From: a virus
Strand: one strand, 5' to 3'
DNA length: 22,114 nt
Virus record (IMG/VR): IMGVR_UViG_3300007541_000257
Coordinates: 1-22,114 of that record
Shown: positions 1,016 to 9,190 of the stretch, one piece after another
How positions within the stretch are numbered: position 1 is the first letter of the stretch
How the letters are laid out: every line of letters begins with the position of its first letter
Made by a program: the position numbers and the translations under genes
The notes under the pieces: generated by a model
Told to the model about the DNA's origin: nothing
The model's database searches: none
What the model saw: only the letters and a program-made list of their open reading frames with translations

Positions 1016-1414
1016 ATGACCAACTTCCAAGCAGAAAGTAAAAAATCTGGCGATCAGTTTGAAACTATCGTCGAGGAAAACCTCAAAGAACTTGGATACG
1101 ATATTACAGGAACGAATGTCAAACTCAATGACATTGGCGTAAATGTTGACTATATTGCAGTTAAAGATGGCATCATTGAGTATGGTGAAGCGAAAGGTGG
1201 TAACCCTGGAGGAAAGAAACGTCCTGGTGCTCAGAGGACTGATAACGTAAAGAAAGCGATCTGCAACGGCGCTCTTCTTAAGCACTCTAATCCCGATGCA
1301 CGGTATGTAATTTATTTTTCTGCTCGTCCCAAAGAAGGTAATTCTTCTGATGAGATGATAAAGACTGCTCTCTCTGCTGGATATGTCGATGAAGTTCGAT
1401 ACATTGAACTTTGA
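1016..1414 (+). CDS. PD-(D/E)XK nuclease-like small protein
   Basis: A 132-residue protein whose centre reads like a restriction-endonuclease core: strand NVDYIAVKDGIIEYGEAKGG (residues 43-62) supplies Asp45 and the Glu58-X-Lys60 pair of a D-(X)n-ExK active site, and Glu20 in the first helix could be the conserved glutamate. A Lys/Arg/Gly-rich stretch (GGKKRPGAQR) follows and may contact nucleic acid. The fold assignment is from the motif only. The substrate is unknown; host DNA degradation or DNA repair are possibilities. The gene has its own candidate promoter (975-1005), and its stop codon lies inside the -35 box of the next promoter. Confidence 0.7.
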   Translation: MTNFQAESKKSGDQFETIVEENLKELGYDITGTNVKLNDIGVNVDYIAVKDGIIEYGEAKGGNPGGKKRPGAQRTDNVKKAICNGALLKHSNPDARYVIYFSARPKEGNSSDEMIKTALSAGYVDEVRYIEL

Positions 1415-1439
1415 CACTCTAATTTAATTCTGTTATAAT
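1411..1439 (+). promoter_or_regulatory. Consensus sigma70 promoter
   Basis: TTGACA (1411-1416), a 17-bp spacer and TATAAT (1434-1439) match the bacterial sigma70 consensus exactly, as expected for a cyanophage early promoter read by host RNA polymerase. The upstream stop codon TGA (1412-1414) is part of the -35 box. The expected transcription start, about 1446, falls in the loop of the terminator at 1441-1463. Confidence 0.9.
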
Positions 1440-1440
1440 G

Positions 1441-1463
1441 GGAGGAGTAATCCTCCTTTTTTT
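1441..1463 (+). terminator. Intrinsic terminator abutting the promoter
   Basis: GGAGGA (1441-1446), loop GTAA, TCCTCC (1451-1456), then seven T (1457-1463). It would end transcripts arriving from the talC side. RNA started at the adjacent promoter lacks most of the 5' arm and should escape it. Confidence 0.8.
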
Positions 1464-4011: not shown

Positions 4012-4094
4012 TTAGTTTAATCGGTGGAATCGTTTTAGGTTCTACTGCATTCATGCTCTTAATTTATGCTGAAGTATTATTGCTAAGTAAGTAA
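4008..4094 (+). CDS. 28-residue hydrophobic membrane peptide
   Basis: GTG at 4008 overlaps the previous stop (GTGA), and the TAA shares a base with the next ATG. The encoded peptide is almost entirely one transmembrane span (LIGGIVLGSTAFMLLIYAEV). Phages of cyanobacteria often carry tiny membrane subunits, but I cannot match this to a photosystem or cytochrome subunit. The evidence is the composition plus the overlap chain. Confidence 0.45.
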   Translation: MISLIGGIVLGSTAFMLLIYAEVLLLSK

Positions 4095-4249
4095 TGCAAA
4101 ATTACACATATCATCATGATGATATGGATAAAGATAACAGACCACCTGCCTGTTATCAGTTAAAGTACAGAGGTTGCAACTACTGGTCATGCTATCTCAT
4201 TCATTTGGATGAGTGGTTTGATAAACTACTAAAGTTTGAGGGGGATTGA
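4094..4249 (+). CDS. Small aromatic-rich protein
   Basis: A 51-residue frame beginning at ATG 4094 (one base shared with the preceding TAA). It is His/Tyr/Cys-rich (NYTYHHDDMD, then YRGCNYWSCYL) and ends with an amphipathic helix. Three cysteines in a short span could bind a metal, but there is no family match. The stop TGA (4247-4249) lies in the terminator loop and in the -35 box of the next promoter. Confidence 0.6.
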   Translation: MQNYTYHHDDMDKDNRPPACYQLKYRGCNYWSCYLIHLDEWFDKLLKFEGD

Positions 4250-4265
4250 CTCTCCCTCTTTTTTT
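4238..4265 (+). terminator. Intrinsic terminator overlapping the next promoter
   Basis: GAGGGGGA (4238-4245) pairs with TCTCCCTC (4251-4258), with one G-T wobble, around the loop TTGAC, and seven T follow (4259-4265). The loop is the -35 element of the promoter at 4246-4274. Confidence 0.8.
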
Positions 4266-4274
4266 GTGTATAAT
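4246..4274 (+). promoter_or_regulatory. Sigma70 promoter threaded through a terminator
   Basis: TTGACT (4246-4251), a 17-bp spacer and TATAAT (4269-4274). The spacer contains the 3' arm and T-run of the upstream terminator. It drives the 4296 gene and thyX. Confidence 0.88.
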
Positions 4275-4295
4275 GTGTAAAGAGAACTCTATTTT

Positions 4296-4478
4296 ATGGA
4301 CAGAGACAAACTAAAATTAATGATTCGGAATCTGGAGTTGTTAGTAGATTCTCTCAAAGCAGAAATCTATTCCGATATTGATGCATACAAACGTAAGTCT
4401 GATTACAAAGAAGTAGCATCGTATTTCCATGATTATGATGAAGTATTTGAAGATAGCGATTTGAACGAGGACTTTTGA
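4296..4478 (+). CDS. Small helical acidic protein
   Basis: A 60-residue protein with a leucine-patterned N-terminal helix (RDKLKLMIRNLELLVDSLKA) that could form a coiled coil, and a very acidic C-terminus (YDEVFEDSDLNEDF). It is similar in style to conserved cyanophage hypotheticals next to thyX; the function is unknown. It is the first gene of the thyX transcript, about 15 nt after the expected start site. The stop shares one base with the thyX ATG. Confidence 0.75.
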   Translation: MDRDKLKLMIRNLELLVDSLKAEIYSDIDAYKRKSDYKEVASYFHDYDEVFEDSDLNEDF

Positions 4479-5113
4479 TGACTGTTAAACTTATAAGTGT
4501 GACTCCTGACGCAGAGCAGACAATGGCATATGTTGCCAGGGTTTCTAATCCTGCCAATCAAGAGAATGACAACTATGCAGGACTTTTGCGTTACTGTATT
4601 AAGCACAATCACTGGAGTGTCTTTGAACAAAGTTTCATGACTCTTGAGATTGAAACTACTCGTGCCATCGCAGCTCAAATTTTGCGTCACCGTAGTTTCA
4701 CCTTTCAAGAATTTTCACAACGGTATGCTGATAGTTCCCTACTCTCGAAGGCGATCCCTCTTCCAGAACTCCGTCGTCAGGACACCAAGAATCGTCAGAA
4801 CAGTATTGATGACTTGGATCCGCTCATCATTGATAGGTTGGAGAAGCAGATGAATACTCTGTTTGATTCTGCAATGGCACTCTATCAACAGATGCTTGAG
4901 TCTGGTGTTGCAAAAGAGTGTGCCCGTAACGTTCTTCCTCTGTGTACTCCCACTCGTATCTATATGAGTGGTTCATGTCGCTCATGGATTCATTATATCA
5001 ATCTGCGTTCTGCAAACGGAACCCAAGCAGAACACATGAAGGTCGCAGAAGCATGTAGGGAAGTATTCAAAGAACAGTTTCCTACAGTTGCAGAAGCCCT
5101 TGAGTGGGTCTAA
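4478..5113 (+). CDS. thyX: FAD-dependent thymidylate synthase
   Basis: A 211-residue ThyX. The signature RHR-X7-S is complete in RHRSFTFQEFSQRY (residues about 70-83), and the ARVSNPANQ and HWSVFEQ segments are typical. The C-terminal SCRSWIHYINLR supplies the substrate-binding arginines. ThyX methylates dUMP to dTMP using methylenetetrahydrofolate, FAD and NAD(P)H, supporting phage DNA synthesis. The ATG at 4478 is used; the preceding in-frame TTG at 4475 overlaps the upstream stop. The length is normal. The TAA stop is embedded in a late-promoter-like TCTAAATA (5109-5116). Confidence 0.97.
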   Translation: MTVKLISVTPDAEQTMAYVARVSNPANQENDNYAGLLRYCIKHNHWSVFEQSFMTLEIETTRAIAAQILRHRSFTFQEFSQRYADSSLLSKAIPLPELRRQDTKNRQNSIDDLDPLIIDRLEKQMNTLFDSAMALYQQMLESGVAKECARNVLPLCTPTRIYMSGSCRSWIHYINLRSANGTQAEHMKVAEACREVFKEQFPTVAEALEWV

Positions 5114-7836: not shown

Positions 7837-8165
7837 GCAGATTTTTTGATTCTGAAGTAGTAAGAGAGTCAGTTCTTGAACTGGAAGAACTTCAACAAAA
7901 ACTCTACAGTGAGATGATGAACATGCACACATTTTCCACTGAAGAAAAGAGAGAACACTTAGAAACTCTAAAAACATTTTTAGAGAAGCAAAAGATTTTC
8001 TTCTTCCGTATTTCTCTTTCTGATGATCCAGATGCACTGGAGATTAAGCAAAGAGTTATGGACGCAGCAAAAATGTTTGGTTACAATGAAATTGATGGCA
8101 TGGACAAGTTCTTTGAGCAACTTGATTACACCATCAAAAAACTGGAGAAATCCCTTGACAGGTAA
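7833..8165 (+). CDS. DUF1825-like protein shared with cyanobacteria
   Basis: A 110-residue helical protein. Its features line up with the cyanobacterial DUF1825 family: FFDSEVVRESVLELEELQQ at the N-terminus, FSTEEKREHLETLKTFLEKQKIF, the conserved RISLSDDPDA, and a C-terminal MDKFFEQLDYTIKKLEKSL helix. The family is nearly restricted to cyanobacteria and their phages, and its function is unknown. The gene is coupled to gp59 by ATGA, and its stop lies just inside the gp32 promoter. Co-occurrence with gp59 and gp32 hints at a replication-linked role, which is inference only. Confidence 0.82.
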   Translation: MSRFFDSEVVRESVLELEELQQKLYSEMMNMHTFSTEEKREHLETLKTFLEKQKIFFFRISLSDDPDALEIKQRVMDAAKMFGYNEIDGMDKFFEQLDYTIKKLEKSLDR

Positions 8166-8192
8166 GGGCACTTGCCCTATAATAGACCTGTC
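8155..8192 (+). promoter_or_regulatory. Consensus sigma70 promoter of gp32 inside a nested palindrome
   Basis: TTGACA (8155-8160), a 17-bp spacer and TATAAT (8178-8183). GACAGGT (8157-8163) and ACCTGTC (8186-8192) form an outer 7-bp inverted repeat; AGGGC (8165-8169) and GCCCT (8174-8178) form an inner stem filling the spacer. No T-run follows. It could be an operator, or a hairpin in read-through mRNA. Confidence 0.85.
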
Positions 8193-9165: not shown

Positions 9166-9190
9166 AACCCTCCGAAAGGAGGGTTTTTTT
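9166..9190 (+). terminator. Intrinsic terminator after gp32
   Basis: AACCCTCC (9166-9173), tetraloop GAAA and GGAGGGTT (9178-9185), with a T-run through 9190. The T-run overlaps the stop codon of convergent gp53 (9189-9191). Confidence 0.93.

Follow-up and report, generated by a model that had tools for sequence, protein, structure and literature searches.

The window, a virus fragment analysed over its whole length of 22,114 nucleotides (Table 1), is by its gene content part of a marine T4-like cyanophage genome. A short ORF, homologous to the annotated SRSM4_010 of S-RSM4 and like it ending at the TGA of a TTGA, is followed downstream by a 60-aa ORF, thyX, a small predicted regulator, phoH, an exonuclease, a helicase loader and gp32, in this order. 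The junction between the two parts (4238-4274) reads GAGGGGGA TTGAC TCTCCCTC TTTTTTT GTG TATAAT. The first-pass annotation had described the TTGAC loop of an 8-bp stem as a -35 element that also holds the upstream stop codon, and the 3' arm with seven T as the 17-bp spacer before TATAAT; on direct reading, both descriptions proved exact.

Table 1. Features read or predicted in the window, with their positions and strand.
Feature	Position	Strand	Remarks
Window	1-22,114		IMG/VR record IMGVR_UViG_3300007541_000257; virus fragment, 22 kb
Second promoter, TTGACA-N17-TATAAT	1411-1439	+	TGA at 1412-1414 is the stop of ORF 1016-1414
Register B terminator, GGGAGGA(GTAA)TCCTCC-T7	1440-1463	+	Begins right after the -10 box; runs into ATG 1464
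Upstream ORF, 51 aa	4094-4249	+	TGA stop inside terminator loop and -35 box
Terminator 5' arm, GAGGGGGA	4238-4245	+	Within upstream ORF; direct reading and folding
Hairpin loop, TTGAC	4246-4250	+	Direct reading
-35 box, TTGACT	4246-4251	+	First five bases are the hairpin loop
TGA stop of ORF 4094-4249	4247-4249	+	Inside both loop and -35 box
Terminator 3' arm, TCTCCCTC	4251-4258	+	First base common to the -35 box
T7 tract	4259-4265	+	Terminator U-tract and part of the 17-bp spacer
17-nt spacer	4252-4268	+	Between -35 and -10 boxes
-10 box, TATAAT	4269-4274	+	Predicted transcription start at ~4281
First downstream ORF, 60 aa	4296-4478	+	PHROG 878 match; function unknown
thyX, thymidylate synthase	4478-5113	+	phrog_85, 3.9e-89; first named gene of its cluster

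The stem at 4238-4258 comprises eight pairs, one of them G-U, around a loop of 5 nt, with the T-run following directly. Folded alone, this segment reached -11.7 kcal/mol (z -3.3), and none of 200 shuffled versions was as good. Sequence features expected of an intrinsic terminator are present at 4238, namely a GC-rich stem of at least 6 bp, a short loop, an immediate U-tract and a position where a same-strand gene ends. The overlapping promoter matches the sigma70 consensus at 11 of 12 positions, and its spacer falls within the usual 16-18 bp. A T4-type late promoter was rejected, as the TATAAATA -10 motif is absent and the -10 box is TATAAT followed by GTGTAA. A known RNA family was rejected, as no Rfam family was found in the window at gathering score, and an attenuator or riboswitch leader does not fit the site at 4246, where the terminator is not downstream of the predicted start.

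Two further signals were noted around gp32. Just after the gene (9166-9185) lies an ordinary GAAA-loop terminator, AACCCTCCGAAAGGAGGGTT-T5. The gp32 promoter (8155-8183, extending to ~8200) stands within nested inverted repeats, with GGGCACTTGCCC in the spacer and TTGACAGGT...ACCTGTCGTCAA around it.

Conservation at thyX and frequency against chance

The thyX loci used for comparison were IMG/VR relatives, a limited sample of best matches that may include near relatives and in which one locus (L004) probably represents the window's own phage. A terminator fused to a promoter in this manner was found at most 700 nt upstream of thyX in 58 of the 77 loci with enough upstream sequence among the matches listed, the sigma70 promoter at 4246 thus being kept in position among relatives. 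An intact strict terminator was absent from this place in the remaining 19, two of which (L048 and L057) are visibly fusions cut by the contig end. The layout is repeated with differing stems, as in gcgtgtc(TTGACA)gacacgc, gagggttc(TTGAC)gaaccctc and gcaccc(TTGACA)gggtgc.

For the analysis of covariation, 33 distinct elements were placed on one axis in an ungapped alignment. Paired bases filled 98.3% of the cells, two-sided changes occurred at all seven stem pairs, and the covariation score was 1.13, compared with 0.28 after shuffling and at most 0.42 in slid controls. As possession of a stem had been the criterion for choosing these elements, their pairing percentage is inflated, and the unselected counts given below weigh more. 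With letters that vary between phages and a layout that is kept, the element looks like a selected two-in-one gene boundary of marine T4-like cyanophages and not like a coincidence.

The same data bear on the idea that a repressor or activator binds the inverted repeat as a DNA operator over the -35 box, and that the repeat is not an RNA terminator. Palindromes over -35 boxes are common operator sites, and some gp32 promoters carry a long hairpin with no T-run; however, the stem letters vary almost freely with pairing kept and G-U pairs tolerated, unlike a protein-binding site, and the flanks are asymmetric, being T-rich after the 3' arm in 126 of 190 cases but A-rich before the 5' arm in 23 of 190. 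Neither the conserved repeat nor the strand-symmetric flanks of a palindromic operator were seen in the fused elements. The polarity of the U-tract, the covariation and the gene-end position together favour a terminator, and an operator appears improbable.

Overlaps were counted in 12 cultured cyanophage genomes (2.27 Mb; S-PRM1 covered to 120 kb). A promoter with its -35 box in the loop was carried by 25 of 442 strict terminators, compared with a mean of 0.83 fusions per set in dinucleotide shuffles of the same genomes, and spacer 17 accounted for 20 cases, every other spacer for 0-5. The enrichment over shuffled sequence that the first-pass annotation had named as support for a general rule was thus obtained, with a peak at spacer 17. 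Strict fusions numbered 1-4 per cultured genome, except for Syn9 and P-HM2 (0 in both), and none were found in a search of the T4 genome. Among the cultured carriers of the element are S-RSM4 (3664, minus strand), S-WAM2 (182798), S-H9-1 (55608, minus strand), P-SSM2 (142801) and Bellamy (184228). Of the proposed recurrent design, the recurrence itself held, as it exceeds chance, shows covarying stems and terminator-type T-runs and keeps a fixed 17-bp register; as a general rule for operon boundaries throughout the genome it did not, because only 25 of the 442 strict terminators are fused, with 0-4 per cultured genome and none in Syn9, P-HM2 or, as far as searched, T4.

IMG/VR was also scanned with the exact pattern TTGAC-N8-T6-N4-TATAAT, which is silent on the presence of a stem and returned at least 120 stretches. 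Among the matches listed, 65 of 121 sites had a stem that was centred on the -35 box and measured 6 bp or more. The hairpin was found in 55 of the 75 clearly cyanophage-like contigs among the matches listed, or in 64 of 75 when nine branched forms (see below) were included. Control centres placed elsewhere on the first ~80 of the pattern-picked loci gave 12 of 637. With the same pattern in GTDB genomes, a hairpin was seen at 8 of 121 bacterial sites, several of them from one Clostridia repeat. When 386 Cyanobacteriota genomes were scanned with a pattern much like it, 30 sites were obtained, none with a hairpin. On these 30 sites, a design derived from the host was rejected, and the fusion is taken as a trait of the phage. 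A recurrent element close to AAATGGTAAAAGCT-TTGAC-TTTTGCCATTTTTTGTAG-TATAAT, whose loop is also the -35 box, was observed in Clostridia MAGs (L229, L240, L279, L282 and L328).

Mere chance, or the packing of two AT-rich signals into a compact genome, is favoured by the shortness of the intergenic spaces, where terminators and promoters both belong. This account, largely refuted already by the register peak, is very hard to reconcile with 25 fusions against 0.83 in shuffles, with the use of just two registers (see below) and with a hairpin that is present at pattern-picked phage sites but lacking at host sites, and we give it almost no weight.

The two registers and the sharing of stop codons

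The site at 1411 had been cited as a companion of the one at 4246. It does show a recurrent overlap of terminator and promoter, but in a different arrangement, as its -35 and -10 boxes precede the hairpin; a common register for both sites was therefore discarded. In register A, exemplified by 4246, the loop is the -35 box, and in register B the stem starts 0-3 nt after the -10 box. Terminator-promoter overlaps in cyanophages take just these two registers, with almost nothing between them: in the 12 genomes, eight strict cases were assigned to register A, ten to register B and one to the interval, compared with 0.1 and 0.0 in shuffles for the two registers. Starts of -35 boxes at the loop reached 2.17 per position in the cultured genomes and 7.0 in the thyX loci; the values were 0.65 and 0.30, respectively, at the register B offset and mostly 0.0-0.2 elsewhere.

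In register B, with its stem beginning 0-3 nt past the -10 box, the start is predicted within the 5' arm, so that RNA made from this promoter should be missing part of the hairpin. RNA of site 1411 folded from its predicted start formed no structure, compared with -10.8 kcal/mol for the full hairpin. At 4246, the whole hairpin precedes the predicted start and so cannot stop transcripts of its own promoter. Judged from these positions, both registers should follow one logic, in which the terminator acts on upstream transcripts and spares those of its own promoter.

Among the register B cases are some at the end of psbD (Syn9 168292, S-PM2d 129313, S-RSM4 and others), which was seen to carry a -35-like TTGCCA supplied by the codons for LPRGNAL-stop, followed by TATAAT or TATACT and by a register B hairpin that extends as far as the following ATG. 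Since this TTGCCA is conserved coding sequence, some register B cases may owe their -35 box to the protein.

An upstream ORF has its stop codon within -60 to +40 of the element in 105 of 126 distinct fused sites, and at 21 of them the TGA of TTGA is itself the stop of an ORF of 40 codons or more. Both window promoters (4246 and 1411) take the stop of the upstream ORF from the TGA in their -35 box. In the 12 genomes, 40 of 431 promoter-like TTGA (9.3%) ended an ORF, compared with 3.8% of other TTGA (Fisher P 4e-7).

In E. coli, a translating ribosome almost completely represses a terminator lying a few bases past the gene (PMC4824070). As the 5' arm at 4238 is itself coding, termination may weaken whenever the upstream ORF is translated, and a closely following ribosome that could silence the 4238 terminator is the main doubt about its function. 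The element might even exploit this effect, with a ribosome at the loop TGA covering the hairpin, so that a well-translated ORF would give read-through and untranslated RNA would be terminated. The exact stops at 21 of 126 sites, the equivalent stop in the homologous S-RSM4 ORF and the repression of E. coli terminators by ribosomes near stops (PMC4824070) agree with such gating. Against it, the stop lies further upstream in most fused sites, TTGA includes TGA and makes sharing cheap, and hairpin-free promoters share it too; overall, we regard gating as unlikely.

A proposed composite boundary between gene clusters

The reading that best accommodates these observations, to which we assign a probability of roughly 0.78, is that of a composite gene-cluster boundary in which a Rho-independent terminator and a host sigma70 promoter occupy the same 37 bases. 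A host RNA polymerase that comes through the small-ORF operon upstream would transcribe the GAGGGGGA/UCUCCCUC hairpin and seven U and be released within the spacer. As DNA, the same bases would bind the sigma70 holoenzyme, with the loop TTGAC as the -35 box and TATAAT 17 bp on, and a restart near 4281 would drive the next cluster (60-aa ORF, thyX, phoH and replication genes). Termination and initiation are both inferred from sequence, and on this basis the element is best read as a compact insulator that would end upstream transcription and restart it with the host enzyme. Cyanobacteria appear to lack Rho, and their termination is thought to be intrinsic (PMC7843447, PMC3219970). With Rho apparently absent, operons are expected to end at hairpins, and the gain would be insulation combined with compactness.

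Insulation may not be the only outcome. In bacteria, RNA polymerase often stays on the DNA after terminating at a hairpin and restarts at the nearest promoter (PMC11347151), and a polymerase freed of its RNA in the U-tract could likewise restart in place, in which case the clusters would be coupled, not insulated. Shared bases provide the shortest possible distance between terminator and promoter, and overlapping sites greatly exceed tandem non-overlapping ones in number, both as such recycling would have it. The overlap is explained equally well by compactness and insulation, however, the evidence for recycling comes from other bacteria, and in E. coli it spans up to ~1000 bp, which makes an overlap unnecessary; we regard recycling as rather unlikely. 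Of similarly low probability is the broader proposal of a widespread and hitherto undescribed class of phage boundaries, in which terminator and promoter would be one, in two fixed registers, and would couple transcripts through in-place restart or instead gate read-through by translation of the upstream ORF. What the sequences support of the original idea is a recurrent design in two registers that is concentrated at certain junctions.

The composite boundary resembles an intrinsic terminator in its GC-rich stem, short loop, U-tract right after the stem and position at a gene end. It differs from ordinary terminators in that the loop is a -35 TTGAC and the U-tract ends just before a -10 box; in non-fused cyanophage terminators, UUCG and GNRA-type loops lead the list. 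In E. coli, the frd terminator, which is also the ampC attenuator, overlaps the start region of the next operon. In that case, the terminator comes after the promoter and its hairpin works within the ampC leader, whereas the hairpin at 4246 ends before the predicted start and at 1411 the start is predicted within the 5' arm. That a terminator may overlap a neighbouring promoter is hence known in principle; the use of a terminator loop as the -35 box is apparently new, no description of it having been found in the open-access literature searched, although an earlier account may exist elsewhere. Sullivan et al. (2010) made separate predictions of promoters and of terminators in cyanophages.

With the sigma70-type early promoters of T4-like cyanophages, the element shares the arrangement TTGAC-N17-TATAAT, but its spacer and -35 box are made of terminator parts. 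Such host-type early promoters were proposed for S-PM2 and Syn9 and, according to a review, not found in S-RSM4 (PMC2984593), in which we located one fused site upstream of td. Engineered bifunctional terminator-promoter elements of yeast are likewise meant to end and start units with one short piece of DNA, but they are synthetic and eukaryotic and do not share a hairpin loop with a -35 box (PMC10298055). T4-like cyanophages lack the polymerase modifiers of T4 as well as MotA/AsiA, and the ordering of their early and middle transcription has been described as unclear (PMC2984593). Where replication and nucleotide clusters begin, the element marks boundaries that are exact and testable, and it lends itself, as a natural system, to a clean test of whether polymerase is recycled after termination. 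Being small, uniting terminator and promoter and allowing its stem to be changed freely, such an element would also be useful in building gene circuits for cyanobacteria.

Other junctions and related forms

Fusions were found mainly upstream of thyX, and also at the junctions of hsp20 with the DNA polymerase cluster (hsp20|gp43) and of cobS with the clamp gene (cobS|gp45), adjoining hli and GC684, and upstream of rnh. The fused junctions are mostly the heads of replication and nucleotide clusters. A single site kept by descent alone was excluded by the occurrences at these several other places (hsp20|gp43, cobS|gp45, hli, GC684 and rnh). P-HM2 contains an imperfect fusion upstream of gp55.

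In a branched form, an inner CTGG-CAAAAT-CCAG hairpin (CTGGCAAAATCCAG) is followed by TTGAC, the outer 3' arm, T6 and the -10 box. This form was located at hsp20|gp43 in S-SM2 (121655); it also occurs in Bellamy (136457) and S9220M01 (120425), and in further loci (L129, L163, L182, L195, L204, L205 and L208). A conserved ATCGTCGCCGCA-like stretch precedes the branched terminator in many cases.

At four sites (S-PM2d 136343, S-RSM4 193928, S-WAM2 186303 and S-H9-1 52109), a long hairpin, GGCACAGGGG...CCCCTGTGCC, that lacks a T-run was observed to hold the -35 box in its loop. All four lie just before gp32, whose position was checked in S-PM2d and S-RSM4. Given these hairpins without a T-run, a hairpin around a -35 box is not necessarily a terminator.

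At the end of psbA in S-PM2d (~127049), a promoter-like stretch is followed by a UUCG hairpin, the T-run of which merges into the late-promoter motif TATAAATA. A late-promoter motif built from the T-run, with NATAAATA located 4-6 nt past the stem, was present in 7 of 263 terminators.
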